From the NCBI RefSeq assembly GCF_003651225.1, contig NZ_RCDB01000002.1:186001-250000 (forward strand): a DNA stretch of 64,000 nt, read 5' to 3'. This document shows, one piece after another, positions 5,061 to 32,255 of this stretch; positions within the stretch are counted from its first letter, which is position 1, and each line of letters starts with the position of its first letter. The position numbers and the translations under genes were made by a program. The notes beneath the pieces were generated by a model, which was given only the letters and a program-made list of their open reading frames with translations, did no database searches and was not told the origin of the DNA. This DNA comes from Microbacterium telephonicum (GTDB lineage: Bacteria > Actinomycetota > Actinomycetes > Actinomycetales > Microbacteriaceae).

Positions 5061-5914
5061 CACACCTCGATGCGCACGTCCAGCCCGAGATCCAGGGCCG
5101 GCGCGGAGTGGGTGAGGGCGCCGACCGAGATGACGTCGACGCCGGTCTCGGCGATCGCGCGGACGCTCGTCAGGTCGACGCCGCCGGATGCCTCGATCTG
5201 CGCGCGCCCGGCGATCTTCTCGACGCCCGCGCGCAGGTGCTCGAGCGTGAAGTTGTCGAGCATGATCGTGTCGACCCCGGCCGCCAGCACCGCCTCGATC
5301 TGGTCGAGATGATCGACCTCGACCTCGACGTGCGCGGTGTGGGGGAGTCGGGCAATCGCGCCCTGCAGGGCCTGCGTCACCGGCGCGCCGCCCGCGGTGA
5401 GCACCGCGAGGTGGTTGTCCTTGGCCATGACGGCGTCCGACAGGGAGAAGCGGTGGTTGTGGCCGCCGCCGCAGCGCACCGCGTGACGCTCGAACGCGCG
5501 CAGCCCCGGTGTGGTCTTGCGGGTGTCGGCGATCCGCGCGCCGGTGTGCGCGACCTGCTCCACGTAGCGCGCCGTCAGCGTCGCGATGCCCGACATCCGC
5601 TGCACGAAGTTCAGGGCGACCCGCTCACCCGTCAGCACCCCGCGGGCGGGTCCGGTCACCGTGGCCAGCACGTCACCGACGTCGAACGCCGCGCCGTCGG
5701 CGACGGTCTGCGTCACGTGCACCGCCGGGTCGGTGAGGGTGAACGCGGCGGCGAACACGGCGCCGCCGCTGAAGACCCCGGGCTCCCGGGCGATCAGATC
5801 CGCCGTCGCGACGGCATCCGCGGGGATGAGCGACGAGCTGGTGAGATCGCCCCAGGGCGCATCTTCCTCGAGCGCGGCCTGCACGACGCGGGAGATGTGG
5901 GCGGCGGTGAGCAT
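5060..5914 (-). CDS. nadC: nicotinate-nucleotide pyrophosphorylase (carboxylating)
   Basis: Quinolinate phosphoribosyltransferase: quinolinate plus PRPP gives nicotinate mononucleotide, CO2 and pyrophosphate, the third step of de novo NAD synthesis. The 284 residues match family length. Visible signatures are EDAPWGDLTSSSL near the start, LNFVQRMSGIATLT, the active-site stretch IADTRKTTPGLR, CGGGHNHRFSLSDA with AKDNH, EVEVDH and the C-terminal EASGGVDL. The ATG at 5914 overlaps the nadB stop by one base. Confidence 0.96.
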   Translation of the reverse strand: MLTAAHISRVVQAALEEDAPWGDLTSSSLIPADAVATADLIAREPGVFSGGAVFAAAFTLTDPAVHVTQTVADGAAFDVGDVLATVTGPARGVLTGERVALNFVQRMSGIATLTARYVEQVAHTGARIADTRKTTPGLRAFERHAVRCGGGHNHRFSLSDAVMAKDNHLAVLTAGGAPVTQALQGAIARLPHTAHVEVEVDHLDQIEAVLAAGVDTIMLDNFTLEHLRAGVEKIAGRAQIEASGGVDLTSVRAIAETGVDVISVGALTHSAPALDLGLDVRIEV

Positions 5915-7536
5915 CAGGCGACCTCCTGCTGTTCGGAACTCCGGAGATCCGCGCGATCGCGGCGACCGGAAGCGTTTTCGAGCGGCGACACGGCGTGGAT
6001 CTCCGGAGTTGTGGACGAGGCGGCGGCGTCGCGCCGGAAGTGCGCGCCGACCGACTCGGTGCGGGCGAGGGCGGCGGCGACGACCGCGCGGGCAACGACG
6101 AGCAGGTTCGCGTCCTCCCGGGCGGCGGCATCCGTCGGTTCCGGCATCGCCCGGCCGTCGAGCACGCGCGCCGCGTGCGCGAGCCCCGCCGCATCGCGCT
6201 CGACACCCGCGCACTCCCACATGAGCTGCTGCAGCTCCGCGCGGCGCATCGGTGCGCGAGGGGTCGCGACACGCGATGCGTCCGCGGCGGGCGCCGCGTG
6301 TTGCGACCCCTCGCGGACGGGAAGGCCGGGCGCGGGTGCGGATGCCGGGGCCGACGCGGCGGCTCGGCCGGCACGGGCGCCGAAGACGGCGCCCTCCAGC
6401 AGCGAGTTCGAGGCCAGGCGGTTCGCGCCGTGCACGCCGGTGCGGGCGACCTCGCCGGCGGCGAACAGACCGGGGATCGACGTCCGGCCGTCGAGGTCGG
6501 TCACGACACCGCCCATGAGGTAGTGGGCCGCAGGGGTGACGGGGATGGGCTCGCGCGCCCAGTCCAGTCCGCGGGCGCGGACGGCGGCGTCGATCGTCGG
6601 GAAGCGCTCGGCGAGGAAGTCGGCCGTCGCGGCGGGAGTGGCGCGCAGTCCGGTGGCGTCGAGCAGCACGGGGCGTCCGTCCTGCGCGGCCATGGCCGTC
6701 ACGATCGCGCGGGCCACGACGTCGCGGGGCGCGAGCTCGGCATCGGGGTGCACGTCGACCATGAAGCGGTGCCCCCGCGCGTCGCGCAGCACCGCGCCCT
6801 CGCCGCGCATCGCCTCGGAGACGAGGAACGCATCACCGGCGGCGAGCACCGTCGGATGGAACTGCACGAACTCGAGGTCGGCGACCTCGGCGCCGGCCCG
6901 CAGCGCCGCGGCGATGCCGTCACCGGTCGCGACGGCGGGATTGGTCGTGTGCGCGTAGAGCTGCCCGGCGCCCCCGGTCGCGAGCACGACGGCGTCCGCC
7001 CGCACCGTGCGCAGGGCGCCGGCGACGAGCAGTTCGACCCCGACGCAGCGTCCGCCGTCCGTCAGCAGTTCGGTGAGCAGTGCGCCCTCGACGATCTCGA
7101 CGCCGTCGGTGCGGAGGCGGGCGATCAGGCCGGCCTCGATCACGGCGCCGGTCGCGTCGCCCCCCGCGTGCAGCACACGGGGGTAGGAGTGTGCGGCCTC
7201 GAGTCCGCGGACGAAGGCGCCGTCGGCGGTGCGGTCGAAGGCGACCCCCGCCGCGACGAGCTCGCGGATGCGCGCGGGACCCTCGGAGGCGAGCACGCGC
7301 ACGGCGGCAGGGTCGCCGAGGCCGGCCCCGGCCATGAGCGTGTCGCGCACGTGGTCGGCGACGCGGTCGTCGTCGAACATGACCGCGGCGACCCCGCCCT
7401 GCGCGTAGCGCGTGTTCGACTCCGCGAGCGACGCCTTCGTCACAAGGGTCACCCGCGCGCCGGCCGCCGCGGCGTGGTGGGCCGCGGTGAGCCCCGCGAT
7501 CCCGGAGCCGACGACGACCACGTGCGGCGTGGTCAC
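5914..7536 (-). CDS. nadB: L-aspartate oxidase
   Basis: FAD enzyme that oxidises L-aspartate to iminoaspartate for NadA. The 540 residues begin with the FAD motif VVVGSGIAGL, then TRYAQGGVAAV, HTTNPAVATGDG, EFVQFHPT, the active-site stretch around PAAHYLMGGV and GEVARTGVHGANRLASNSLLE. The GTG start overlaps the nadA stop (GTGA). Residues about 408-427 form an Ala/Pro/Arg linker encoded entirely by a long inverted repeat (6255-6315). The last 30 residues contain a second inverted repeat (5937-6010). Neither breaks the frame; both lie outside the catalytic core. The C-terminal Arg/Glu-rich tail is therefore probably not conserved. Confidence 0.95.
   Translation of the reverse strand: MTTPHVVVVGSGIAGLTAAHHAAAAGARVTLVTKASLAESNTRYAQGGVAAVMFDDDRVADHVRDTLMAGAGLGDPAAVRVLASEGPARIRELVAAGVAFDRTADGAFVRGLEAAHSYPRVLHAGGDATGAVIEAGLIARLRTDGVEIVEGALLTELLTDGGRCVGVELLVAGALRTVRADAVVLATGGAGQLYAHTTNPAVATGDGIAAALRAGAEVADLEFVQFHPTVLAAGDAFLVSEAMRGEGAVLRDARGHRFMVDVHPDAELAPRDVVARAIVTAMAAQDGRPVLLDATGLRATPAATADFLAERFPTIDAAVRARGLDWAREPIPVTPAAHYLMGGVVTDLDGRTSIPGLFAAGEVARTGVHGANRLASNSLLEGAVFGARAGRAAASAPASAPAPGLPVREGSQHAAPAADASRVATPRAPMRRAELQQLMWECAGVERDAAGLAHAARVLDGRAMPEPTDAAAREDANLLVVARAVVAAALARTESVGAHFRRDAAASSTTPEIHAVSPLENASGRRDRADLRSSEQQEVA
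5937..6010. repeat. palindrome overlapping 3' end of nadB
   Basis: AACTCCGGAGATCC (5937-5950) is the exact reverse complement of GGATCTCCGGAGTT (5997-6010), with 46 bases between the arms. It codes for residues about 509-534 of NadB and ends 22 bases before the nadC start codon. Confidence 0.8.
6255..6315. repeat. 21-bp-arm palindrome inside nadB
   Basis: Arms 6255-6275 and 6295-6315 are complementary over 21 bases with a single G-T pair; the core is GGGGTCGCGACACGCG on the left arm. A related palindrome lies at 32193-32255. The element is in frame with nadB and encodes a linker. Confidence 0.85.
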
Positions 7537-8846
7537 GGCCGTGCCGCCAGCATCCGCTCGAGTGCGACCCGCGCGGGGTCGGCGACGTCCGCCGGCACCG
7601 TCACCCGGTTGAGCACTGTGCCGGCGACGAGTCCCTCCAACACCCAGGCGAGGTAGCCGGGGTGGATGCGGTACATCGTCGAGCACGGGCACACGACGGG
7701 GTCGAGGCAGAATATCTCGTGCTGCGGATGCTGCGCCGCGAGCCGCTGCACGAGGTTCACCTCGGTGCCCACCGCGAACACGGTCGGCTCGGTCGTCGCG
7801 GCGATCGCGGTGCGGATGTAGTCGGTCGATCCTGCCTCGTCGGCGGCGTCCACGACGTCCATCGGGCATTCCGGGTGCACGATGACGCGGACGCCGGGGT
7901 GGTCGGCGCGGGCCTTGTCGATCTGGGCCGTCGTGAACCGGCGGTGCACCGAGCAGAAGCCGTGCCAGAGGATGACGCGGGCATCGTCGAGCGTCGCCTC
8001 GTCGGATCCGCCGAGGGGCTTGCGCGGGTTCCACATCGGCATCTGCGCGAGCGGGACCCCCATCGCCTTGGCGGTGTTGCGCCCCAGGTGCTGGTCGGGG
8101 AAGAACAGCACCCGGCGGCCGCGGGCGAACGCCCATTCCAGCACGGTGCGCGCGTTCGACGACGTGCAGACGATGCCGCCGTGACGGCCCACGAAGCCCT
8201 TGATCGCCGCGGAGGAGTTCATGTACGTCACCGGGATCACCGGCACGAGGCCGTCGGCATCCGCCTCGTCCATGTCGCCGTAGATCTCGGCCAGCTGCTC
8301 CCAGCACTCCTCGACCTCGTCGATCGAGGCCATGTCGGCCATCGAGCATCCGGCGGCGAGATTCGGGAGGATGACGGCCTGGTCGGGACGCGACAACAGG
8401 TCGGCGGTCTCGGCCATGAAGTGCACGCCGCAGAACACGATGGCCTCGGCATCCGGATGCTGCTGCGCGAACCCGGCGAGCTGGAACGAGTCGCCGGTGT
8501 GGTCGGCGTGGACGATGATCTCCTCGCGCTGATAGTGGTGGCCCATCACCACTACGCGGTCGCCGAGGGTCTGCTTCGCCGCGCGGATGCGGCGGTCGAG
8601 CTCTTCCTCGCTCGCCTCCCGGTACTCGGCGGGCAGCTCGCCCTGCCGGGGTGCACCGGTGGGGATGACGTCGCCCATCGACGATCCCGGACCGTAGCCG
8701 GGGCGGGCGTCGAATTCCCACGGGCCGGCGGCGAGGTCGGTGTTGCAGGTCTCGCCCGGGGCGGCCCCGGCGACGATCGCCTGGATGCCGTGGTCGACGG
8801 ACGGGTCGACCGGACGCGGCTGGAGCGTGAGGAGGGTGGCGGCCAT
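7533..8846 (-). CDS. nadA: quinolinate synthase
   Basis: Condenses iminoaspartate with dihydroxyacetone phosphate to quinolinate; needs a 4Fe-4S cluster. The 437 residues belong to the long actinobacterial form with an N-terminal extension of about 85 residues. Signatures are VVVMGHHYQREEI, HADHTGDSFQLA, the three cluster cysteines in VFCGVHFMAETADLL, WHGFCSVH (or the HPECP cysteine) and CPCSTMYRIHP, plus NSSAAIKG. It starts at an ATG 15 bases after the nrtR stop with an AAAGG ribosome site and overlaps nadB by GTGA. Confidence 0.96.
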   Translation of the reverse strand: MAATLLTLQPRPVDPSVDHGIQAIVAGAAPGETCNTDLAAGPWEFDARPGYGPGSSMGDVIPTGAPRQGELPAEYREASEEELDRRIRAAKQTLGDRVVVMGHHYQREEIIVHADHTGDSFQLAGFAQQHPDAEAIVFCGVHFMAETADLLSRPDQAVILPNLAAGCSMADMASIDEVEECWEQLAEIYGDMDEADADGLVPVIPVTYMNSSAAIKGFVGRHGGIVCTSSNARTVLEWAFARGRRVLFFPDQHLGRNTAKAMGVPLAQMPMWNPRKPLGGSDEATLDDARVILWHGFCSVHRRFTTAQIDKARADHPGVRVIVHPECPMDVVDAADEAGSTDYIRTAIAATTEPTVFAVGTEVNLVQRLAAQHPQHEIFCLDPVVCPCSTMYRIHPGYLAWVLEGLVAGTVLNRVTVPADVADPARVALERMLAARP

Positions 8847-9649: not shown

Positions 9650-9754
9650 TCGCCGCATGACACGCGAGATCGCCGGTCGGTGCGCGAGATCGCCGGCGAG
9701 CTCGGCGCGCAACCGGCGAGCTCGGCGCGCGACCGGCGAACTCGGCGGCGGCGC
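9650..9754. repeat. multi-unit inverted repeat between nrtR and marP-like gene
   Basis: The left half carries three copies of GCGAGWTCGCCG-like units and the right half three copies of CGGCGARCTCGGCG-like units, so the 105 bases form one large imperfect palindrome centred near 9700. It fills most of the 9604-9787 gap. Nothing else is seen there apart from the TAGCCT box (9782-9787) before the next gene. Confidence 0.7.
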
Positions 9755-17130: not shown

Positions 17131-17203
17131 CCGCGAGACCTCAACTGTCGGACGAGACCGTGGGTGGCACCCGCGGTCTCGTCCGCACGTTGAGGTCTCG
17201 CGG
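17131..17203. repeat. long palindrome, copy 1 (also possible bidirectional terminator)
   Basis: Outer arms CCGCGAGACCTCAAC (17131-17145) and 17189-17203 match perfectly over 15 bases; inner arms CGGACGAGACCG (17149-17160) and 17174-17185 match perfectly over 12. It lies between the converging gcvP and AbiEi-like genes and encodes the last 20 residues and stop codon of the latter. Copy 2 is at 18273-18345. Confidence 0.9.
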
Positions 17204-18172
17204 ATGCAGCTGCGCGGGGCGCAGCAGCCGGGCGAAGGAATGCAGCTGCAGCGCGTTCTCGGGGAGGAACGGTCGGAGGCCGTGGCCCGACAGCAGGGCT
17301 CGCACCGATTCGACGTCGGCGGTCTCGGCCCAACCCCAGTGCGCGATCGACCGCACATGTGGGCCGATCAACCGCGCGTCACGTCGGCGCCTGGCGCGCA
17401 GAGCGGCGACAGGATCGCCGAAGGTGCCGTCGTACTTCAGCTCGCCGTCGACTTCGCCCAGCAGCCCGGCGGAGTCCCACCAGAAGTCGCCGCGGTCGGC
17501 GGTTCCATCCGGGTGTGAGAATCTCACCTGAAGATCCGGGTCGGGATACCCGAGCCACTCGATGAGGGCGAGATTGAGTGACTCGAGCATCGACTCCGGC
17601 CGCGCGTCCGCGACGGTCAGCGGCCACCGAGCGTGCCGTCGTCCGCGGCTGCTGGCGCGCGTCTCGTTGTCGTGGACCATCGACGCGAGATCCAGCGTCC
17701 GGTCGAGGCGCAGCGCGGCATCCGCCATCGCTCTGCCGAGCGCGTTGTGGCGGTGCCGTGCCAATGTGACGGCCGTTTCGCCGGGTGATGTCACAAGCAG
17801 ACCACCGACATCGAGAGGGGTCGACGGATCCGACCGGGCGTGCGCGCGCACACCCGCGTACATCCGGGATGCCGACGCGGACTCGACCAGGATGTGAACG
17901 GCGCCCGGATCGCCGATCACCCCCAACCCGAGGAGCACGGCGGCCGACTCGTGGGAGAACACCGCATCCGGATAGGACCCCGCGACCGCATGGACTCGCG
18001 CGAGATACCGATCCCACGGCGCAAGATCACGCCACGCATCCACCGGGACGTAGATGCCGCGCCGGACTCGCTGCACGTCACCACGGGCCACCGCCCGCTC
18101 GGGGTGGGCGAGCTCGTCGGTGCGCAGCAGGGCGATCGGGCAGGGTCGGATGGTCTGTTCCGGATCAGTCAT
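17141..18172 (-). CDS. AbiEi/DUF559-like protein
   Basis: 343 residues. The first 170 resemble the N-terminal wing and middle domain of AbiEi-type antitoxin-like proteins (VQRVRRGIYVPVDAW, VFSHESAAVLLGL, TSPGETAVTLARH). The C-terminal part (about 195-260) looks like a Vsr/DUF559 fold of the PD-(D/E)XK class: ESMLESLNLALIEW, GDFWWDSAGLLGEVDGELKYDG, with candidate Asp, Glu and Lys. No AbiEii-like toxin gene is next to it, so this is a solitary member. The last 20 residues (PRDLNVRTRPRVPPTVSSDS region) are read from the palindrome and so are probably acquired. The gene is bracketed by two copies of that palindrome. A CAGAGT box ends 6 bases before the ATG. Nuclease or antitoxin function is unproven. 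Confidence 0.7.
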   Translation of the reverse strand: MTDPEQTIRPCPIALLRTDELAHPERAVARGDVQRVRRGIYVPVDAWRDLAPWDRYLARVHAVAGSYPDAVFSHESAAVLLGLGVIGDPGAVHILVESASASRMYAGVRAHARSDPSTPLDVGGLLVTSPGETAVTLARHRHNALGRAMADAALRLDRTLDLASMVHDNETRASSRGRRHARWPLTVADARPESMLESLNLALIEWLGYPDPDLQVRFSHPDGTADRGDFWWDSAGLLGEVDGELKYDGTFGDPVAALRARRRRDARLIGPHVRSIAHWGWAETADVESVRALLSGHGLRPFLPENALQLHSFARLLRPAQLHPRDLNVRTRPRVPPTVSSDS

Positions 18173-18272
18173 CGCCCCACTCTGCGGCGCTTCGCGGCCC
18201 CGCCGTCGTCGAATCTGTCGACTTCTGGATGCCGCGTGCCGATCGGCCTCCTGGGGAGGAAAGGTTCAGCAT

Positions 18273-18345
18273 CCGCGAGACCTCAACGGCCGGACGAGAC
18301 CGAGGGATCCCACCGCGGTCTCGTCCGGCAGATGAGGTCTCGCGG
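18273..18345. repeat. long palindrome, copy 2
   Basis: Same sequence family and orientation as 17131-17203: arms CCGCGAGACCTCA (18273-18285) with 18333-18345, and CGGACGAGACCG (18291-18302) with 18316-18327; the 10-odd base loops differ. It occupies the 18173-18389 gap, where nothing else is seen. Confidence 0.9.
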
Positions 18346-28508: not shown

Positions 28509-28518
28509 TCCCTCTGCA

Positions 28519-28560
28519 ACGATGAAGGGCCCCGACCGCGCGGTCGGGGCCCTTCATCGT
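28519..28560. terminator. bidirectional terminator between typA and DUF2200 gene
   Basis: Perfect 20-bp-arm palindrome: ACGATGAAGGGCCCCGACCG (28519-28538), two bases, and its complement (28541-28560). It serves the two converging genes. Confidence 0.85.
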
Positions 28561-28561
28561 G

Positions 28562-28903
28562 TCAGCGGAGCACCTTCTCCATCGCTTTGCCCTTGTAGAG
28601 CTCGTCGACGAGCTTGTCGAGGTAGCGGATCTTCTGCATGAGCGGGTCCTCGATCTGCTCCACCCGCAGGCCGCAGATCACCCCGGTTATCCGGTCGGCG
28701 TGCGGATGCAGCTGCGCCTGCGCGAAGAACTCCTCGAAGGTCGTGTCGGCCGCGAGGTGGCGGGCGATCGCGGGCTCGTCGAATCCGGTGAGCCACGTGA
28801 TGACCTCGTCGAGCTCCGCCTTCGTGCGTCCCTTGCGCGCGAGCTTGTCGATGTACAGCGGGTACACGCGCGCGACCGGCATGGCGAAGATGCGCTGGGT
28901 CAT
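28562..28903 (-). CDS. DUF2200 family protein
   Basis: Soluble protein of 113 residues spanning the whole family: RIFAMPVARVYPLYIDKL, KGRTKAELDEVITWLTGF, then GVICGLRVEQIEDPLMQKIR and LDKLVDELYKGKAMEK. Function of the family is unknown. TAGCCT (RC of 28910-28915) ends 6 bases before the ATG, and its TAG is the stop codon of the upstream pectate lyase gene. Confidence 0.9.
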   Translation of the reverse strand: MTQRIFAMPVARVYPLYIDKLARKGRTKAELDEVITWLTGFDEPAIARHLAADTTFEEFFAQAQLHPHADRITGVICGLRVEQIEDPLMQKIRYLDKLVDELYKGKAMEKVLR

Positions 28904-32192: not shown

Positions 32193-32255
32193 GCGCGAGA
32201 GGTCGCGACACGCCGTGACCGGCCCCGCCGCACCGCGTGTCGCGACGCCTCGCGC
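32193..32255. repeat. palindrome related to the one inside nadB
   Basis: GCGCGAG (32193-32199) and GTCGCGACACG (32202-32212) pair with CGTGTCGCGAC (32236-32246) and CTCGCGC (32249-32255). The arms share GCGAG.GGTCGCGACACG with 6255-6315 in nadB. Sits 12 bases after azlD and may act as a terminator. Confidence 0.8.

Follow-up and report, generated by a model that had tools for sequence, protein, structure and literature searches.

The nearest known counterpart of the repeats described here is the REP/RAYT system. As reported for this system, a RAYT gene is flanked by two palindromes, evolves faster than its neighbours and coevolves with the palindromes at orthologous places, and solitary copies lie mostly between genes (PMC2817692). 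REPs inside genes are also known; the same source gives CGTC as the terminus of R. conorii RPEs and notes the apparent lack of a dedicated transposase for CGTC repeats (PMC3733652). RPEs are palindromic repeats that are read in frame within genes (PMC10969869). Furthermore, the promoter of an AbiEi antitoxin contains inverted repeats to which the antitoxin itself binds (PMC7319586).

Here, we analysed a stretch of 64,000 nucleotides of Microbacterium telephonicum (the window; G000:C2:186001-250000), from a genome of 3.1 Mb in 6 contigs (G000; G and L numbers denote genomes and loci). The similarity to RAYTs and REPs in a whole set of features, the absence of the Y1 transposase and the binding of inverted repeats by AbiEi proteins led us to propose a REP-like system run by another enzyme. 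The palindromes would be tied to, and spread by, AbiEi-like/DUF559 predicted nucleases, and the palindrome in nadB would be a solitary, non-autonomous copy. We regard this reading as probable. The features of the window are listed in Table 1.

Table 1. Palindromes and associated genes in the window, with the basis of each assignment.
Feature	Position	Strand	Basis
nadB (L-aspartate oxidase), host of two solitary palindromes	5914-7536	-	TIGR00551 and gene call
Solitary palindrome of another type, AACTCCGGAG..CTCCGGAGTT, 74 bp, in the 3' end of nadB	5937-6010		Cognate unit in own genome
Solitary palindromic repeat of type CGCGAGGGGTC+GCGACACGC, in frame in nadB	6255-6315		Nuclease gene of G160 flanked by this type
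73-bp palindrome at the 3' end of the AbiEi-like gene, overlapping its last codons	17131-17203		Inverted-repeat detection
AbiEi-like gene of a complete unit, divergent member	17141-18172	-	Weak AbiEi_4 match, missed by profile A2
73-bp palindrome of the same type, upstream of the AbiEi-like gene	18273-18345		Inverted-repeat detection
Second solitary copy of the 6255-6315 type, intergenic, core beginning 24 nt past the upstream gene	32194-32254		Covariance-model copies, gene calls

The system shares with REP/RAYT a gene flanked by two repeat copies, coevolution of the repeats with a faster-evolving gene, and solitary copies that are mostly intergenic. In contrast to the Y1 HUH transposase of RAYTs, the gene here encodes an AbiEi-like/DUF559 predicted nuclease. 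The palindromes also differ, as they are about 55-95 bp long and have paired boxes, a free spacer and no consistent GTAG tag; GTAG was absent from the 11 aligned copies and occurred in the flank of only one (L250) of 91 copies with 15-nt flanks. Copy numbers are 6 and at least 20 here, compared with 37-427 perfect copies in Stenotrophomonas in the RAYT report (PMC2817692). If these were ordinary REP/RAYT or IS200/IS605-derived repeats, the gene-plus-two-palindromes anatomy, the coevolution and the extragenic bias would be as described for RAYTs in that report. However, the Y1 transposase profile PF01797 had no match in any of 24 genomes, of which 12 carry the core pattern and 12 lack it, versus matches in 5 of 14 control genomes. 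A RAYT origin was therefore rejected, and we consider this explanation scarcely credible.

Other systems show partial likenesses. RPEs are likewise palindromic repeats read in frame within genes, but in-frame positions are not the rule here (2 of 92 nadB-type core copies lie in predicted genes) and a cognate nuclease gene exists. MITEs are also short non-autonomous repeats that share sequence with the ends of a gene-bearing unit; in the units read here, however, a whole palindrome stands on each side and the gene between encodes a predicted nuclease. AbiEi antitoxins have in common with our proteins the AbiEi_4-like N-terminal domain, in a group known for inverted-repeat binding, whereas our proteins carry a nuclease-like C-terminal domain and their repeats occur on both sides of the gene and dispersed. 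We assume that the nuclease of these units belongs to a fold group related to Vsr-like/EDxHD homing endonucleases. Selfish spread would be similar in the two cases, but here it is the palindromes, not a host gene, that look like the cognate DNA, and none of the units read showed an intron or intein context.

The nadB frame (5914-7569 on the minus strand) matches TIGR00551 with 518 bits, and its closest named record is NadB of Microbacterium sp. T2.11-28 (68%). The first palindrome has a core of 59 bp (6256-6314), with arms of 19-20 nt, a spacer of 21 nt and one G-T pair. It encodes approximately residues 419-439 of the 551-residue frame, and the conserved C-terminal helices of NadB continue in frame beyond it. 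Counting every placement in which arms of 20 nt had no more than one mismatch and the loop spanned 0-60, with neighbouring placements of one repeat taken separately, we found five inverted-repeat placements in the window and none in 60 simulated first-order Markov windows. A chance origin of the nadB palindrome was thus rejected. These data confirm what the initial annotation had noticed, an inverted repeat with one G-T pair inside the nadB frame. Its related palindrome between genes near 32193 was also confirmed, and is flanked by two genes on the same strand.

The initial annotation further described the repeat as inserted in frame. The in-frame location holds, but an insertion does not show in the length of the protein, as the NadB linker counts 54 residues versus 47-75 residues (median 53) in the 29 best-matching NadB proteins of the genus with loci. 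Hence, a clean insertion that lengthened NadB is unsupported. In the nearest relative, G082, the linker itself carries a degenerate palindrome (score 18) of a type that brackets a nuclease gene of G082, with 4 differences; comparison with G082 is therefore not a comparison with an empty site. Palindromes of any kind scored at least 15 in 5 of 43 NadB linkers, the window's included, and 14 in another five, on a scale on which some control stretches reach 15-19. Among these linkers, the palindrome is thus not conserved. The remaining linkers that score at least 15 are those of G209 (17), Microbacterium sp. AK031 (L033, 25) and Agromyces allii (L035, 15), and there is perhaps a palindrome in Microbacterium sp. 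SD291 (L036, 14). By eye, the linker peptide PIPEHVEGSNP of L161 (G247) resembles another repeat-derived segment.

A covariance model built from 11 copies was used to search the own genome. Six strong and two weak copies were found, and beyond these eight matches E exceeded 0.6; the further genomic copies that the initial annotation had suggested looking for are thus present, five of the six strong ones between genes. Among the 11 copies found by sequence similarity, total length was 60 in nine and 59 in two, both of which lie in the window. Spacers of 21-22 nt are nearly free in sequence and the arms nearly identical: across 15 copies from three species, arms averaged 93% identity and spacers 46%, versus the 35% to be expected if random spacers are compared in whichever orientation fits better. 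The inner half GCGACACGC-N22-GCGTGTCGC occurred in 57 of 366 genus genomes, and the reversed control pattern in none of the genomes listed; the N22 spacing of these copies is imposed by the search pattern, so that the evidence on spacing comes from the 11 similarity-found copies only. Outer arms vary among species, and in G160 and G191 also within one genome. The near-equal lengths combined with free spacers suggest a protein acting on duplex DNA.

Dispersed nadB-type copies share no spacers, unlike local tandem copies, which keep them. Either the dispersed copies are old, or they were not made by copying of the whole palindrome; unless they are old, the observation speaks against whole-palindrome copying. 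No target-site duplications were seen by eye beside the 11 copies, and a plasmid search with the nadB element gave no match. As an impression, the word GGATGCC/GGCATCC seems frequent in the genus, palindrome spacers included.

Gene context was assessed for 92 distinct core-bearing copies, sampled at no more than a few listed places per genome, using gene calls from a codon-usage script trained on the window. In total, 52 copies lay between tandem genes, 34 between convergent genes, four between divergent genes, and two within predicted genes (nadB and one gene of G119). Among the tandem cases, 38 of 52 copies were nearer to the upstream stop codon. This short distance after genes, together with very stable predicted RNA hairpins (-48 to -75 kcal/mol when the 11 copies were folded along with short flanks), would fit transcription terminators or 3' RNA hairpins unrelated to the nuclease. 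However, the loops are about 20 nt long, no T run follows within 30 nt of the 11 copies, the arms vary between units, matched pairs surround one gene family, and some copies are read in frame within genes. We therefore rate terminators as very improbable.

The context data also bear on the idea that the palindromes are operators of an AbiEi-like regulator, with an autoregulated unit and the scattered copies as its regulon. In its favour, AbiEi antitoxins are known to bind promoter repeats of their own genes, as cited above, and the near-fixed box spacing (60 bp, twice 59 bp, in 11 copies) suggests a protein on duplex DNA. In contrast, the copies avoid divergent promoter regions (4 of 92, compared with 29 divergent gaps among the 114 intergenic gaps of at least 100 bp at sampled loci), a copy is also present downstream of the gene, and several copies lie within coding sequence. 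An operator function consequently appears improbable, if slightly less so than terminators.

The largest recurrent family among the genes adjoining copies (10 loci) combines an AbiEi-like N-terminus with a DUF559/MTES_1575 nuclease-like C-terminus, which we take to have a Vsr-type PD-(D/E)XK fold. DUF559 (PF04480) exceeded its cut-off of 20.6 bits in nine of the ten element-adjacent proteins, and also in the G170 protein and L271; L258 (20.3 bits) and the G160 protein (20.1 bits) fell just below it. Five of the ten proteins had first been called with shortened N-termini and were rescanned. AbiEi_4 scored above its cut-off of 25 bits in five of the ten and 16.3-24.9 bits in the other five, and for L271, as given, none was listed from the profile start. 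A profile built on the ten proteins yielded 1-10 matches in each of eight genus genomes, and AbiEi/DUF559-type proteins were found in 67 of 149 genomes of the order. A PDB sequence search with the nuclease profile gave one weak match, 3hrl 'Endonuclease-Like Protein' (E 0.0067). We know of no settled role for AbiEi/DUF559-type proteins.

In seven of the ten element-adjacent genes, a copy with like outer arms was present on each side. The other three (L260, L262, L218) showed a palindrome on one side at first; a second was later found for two and in part for the third. More than one palindrome per side was observed at L322 (G082), L235/L308 (G170) and L188 (own genome), and neighbouring palindromes in G082 and G170 have near-identical spacers, as after local tandem duplication.

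To quantify the pairing, 57 profile rows were reduced to 44 nuclease genes by removing 10 fragment rows and 3 duplicate loci. A strict word test, in which one 8-base word and its reverse complement had to occur within 45-110 bases of each other in both flanks, was passed by 23 of the 44 nuclease genes and by only 2 of 160 control genes. Ten of the 44 genes had been found via their palindrome; without them, 17 of 34 genes found by homology only still passed (p 3e-13). The controls are not independent, as 54 come from the surroundings of nadB in 29 genomes and 65 from the vicinity of elements; taken separately, 1 of 41 window controls passed, none of the 54 and 1 of the 65, with p 1e-6 or less each. 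The single positive among the 65 near-element controls is a gene between two elements (L236). Conversely, several of the 21 nuclease genes that failed the test display pairs by eye. Flank palindrome scores of the 44 full-length genes were also higher than those of 39 window genes, both upstream (Mann-Whitney p 3e-8) and downstream (p 3e-6).

Palindrome types vary from one nuclease gene to another, and left and right palindromes match each other. Where both scores were at least 14, the best downstream match of an upstream palindrome was that of its own gene in 23 of 27 cases; with homology-found genes and no score cut, it was so in 22 of 34. In the wider order the own partner ranked first at 11 of 28 loci, and at 9 of 24 outside the genus. 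The pairing of palindromes with nucleases is thus weaker outside the genus.

Palindrome likeness climbed with nuclease identity (rho 0.27 over 350 pairs that are not independent). The mean palindrome score was approximately 12 at 20-40% nuclease identity, 35 in the 60s and 44 in the 70s. The list of the 32 closest gene pairs contains 23 with at least one common neighbour and nine with none. In the neighbour-sharing pairs, the nucleases are 60-76% identical (lowest 59.5%), whereas identity ranges from 51 to 96% for the shared neighbours, most of which exceed 72%; a further listed match, of 44%, joins different neighbours. On these figures, the nuclease gene diverges faster than its neighbours and coevolves with its palindromes.

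A second nuclease subfamily, found from G170, includes a gene of G160 that is bracketed by the nadB-type palindrome and lies between terC and leuC. One of its flanking palindromes is exact in both arms; the other has 2 and 3 arm differences. At the same place in 15 other genomes, there was no nuclease match beside terC. Without the unit, terC and leuC are 79-308 nt apart in 11 genomes and 943 and 1356 nt apart in two, with leuC out of reach in the other two; G137 has a solitary palindrome of another type there. In the own genome, none of five matches to the second subfamily carries the nadB-type palindrome, so that the nadB-type copies appear to be orphaned there. No nuclease with the nadB-type palindrome was found among the matches examined in G018, where the copies likewise look orphaned, and the further stretches L338 and L339 (G018) and L341 (G160) contained no nadB-type palindrome.

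The absence of the G160 unit from the other 15 genomes, and the solitary palindrome of another type in G137, would also suit a whole unit that is itself mobile, homing into or leaving solitary palindromes, which would be its targets or, like solo LTRs, its scars. Moreover, Vsr-like nucleases include homing enzymes. However, neighbours are shared across species in 23 of the 32 closest gene pairs, and at several shared places the palindromes on both sides change together between species (by eye). Joint change on both sides next to shared neighbours is more readily explained by a driver that stays in place than by a unit that moves. We consider a mobile unit unlikely, but less so than operators or terminators.

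In the preferred reading, palindromes driven by a resident nuclease, each repeat type would belong, as cognate DNA, to one resident gene whose two-domain product has an AbiEi-like winged-helix DNA-binding N-terminus and a nuclease-like C-terminus, and this gene would be bracketed by two copies of its own palindrome. The protein would bind the paired boxes, an outer and an inner one with a gap between, on duplex DNA, with a spacer of near-fixed length and free sequence. It may nick or cut at the palindrome, whereupon repair or replication would copy the palindrome to new places. Copies would survive chiefly just past the ends of genes, and occasionally as in-frame segments of a tolerant linker, as in NadB. 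The anatomy, dispersed copies, gene pairing, left-right match, relation of palindrome likeness to protein likeness and gene-end preference were computed directly. Binding, cutting and dissemination by the nuclease are proposed on the basis of these sequence patterns.

More broadly, the repeats may represent a class of selfish DNA, in which AbiEi-like/DUF559 nucleases common in the order maintain and spread their own bipartite palindromes, with uniform boxes and drifting spacers. This would be a second REP-like system independent of RAYTs, with in-frame insertions adding peptides; we see the arguments for and against this wider claim as evenly balanced. The Y1 transposase, by which RAYTs are defined, was sought and not found in the 24 genomes. 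Within the open-access literature, no paper combining DUF559 with palindromic repeats was found by title or abstract start. Should the proposed nuclease action prove wrong, the finding would reduce to known parts in a new association. The two flanks of each nuclease gene spell out the DNA target predicted for its product. Provided that the proteins do spread the repeats, selfish repeats of the REP kind originated two or more times, with enzymes unrelated to each other; otherwise, the pairing still gives access to a family of predicted sequence-specific nucleases and to their likely targets.

The second palindrome in nadB has its cognate unit in the own genome, at G000:C3:464016 (loci L271 and L188). 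Matching in the loci fetched, which is not a full count, and with two overlapping matches excluded, gave 20 copies of the AACTCCGGAG type: four surround the gene at G000:C3:464016, six lie in frame within genes and ten are intergenic. Hence, 6 of the 16 dispersed copies, not counting the four around the cognate gene, are in frame within genes, namely in nadB, a DNA methylase, two ABC ATPases and, twice, a DEAD helicase. Five of the six in-frame copies encode peptides with the pattern N-S-G-[DE]...[DV]-[LV]-R-S. Lengths equal to 1 mod 3 were found in five of the six copies inside genes versus 1 of 14 elsewhere (p 0.002, in a test conceived after the lengths had been seen). The copies in NadB, the two ABC ATPases, the DNA methylase and the helicase show how repeats may add protein segments. 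The suggestion in the initial annotation of a coding-tolerant element in this actinobacterium holds in part: in-frame palindromes do exist in its genes, the 5937-6010 type being the better example. The 6255-6315 type is not mainly such an element, as five of the six strong copies and 90 of the 92 core-bearing copies are intergenic by the gene calls and the NadB linker does not exceed that of relatives in length.

The window also contains a complete palindrome-gene-palindrome unit (17131-18345); this unit, like the pairing with AbiEi/DUF559 nuclease genes in general, had escaped the initial annotation. Its palindrome-flanked gene was predicted beforehand to belong to the nuclease family, and proved to be AbiEi-like but a weak member, with an AbiEi_4 match of 16.1 bits (E 0.012). 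The protein had no DUF559, NCBIfam or profile A2 match, and its single-sequence structure prediction had a mean pLDDT of 36.7. A homologue with 49% identity at G000:C2:682000 has like palindromes on both sides, and had itself been a match (E 1.6e-5) of the G170 nuclease used as query. In the strict word test the window unit fails because its palindrome overlaps the gene end; with a flank that starts 80 nt within the gene, it passes.

Two further inverted repeats were observed in the window. At 28511-28568, a palindrome with 29-bp arms and no loop lies at the 3' end of a small minus-strand gene and is possibly a terminator. At 9665-9744, overlapping inverted repeats with CGAGATCGCCGG/CCGGCGAGCTCG words are located between divergent genes.
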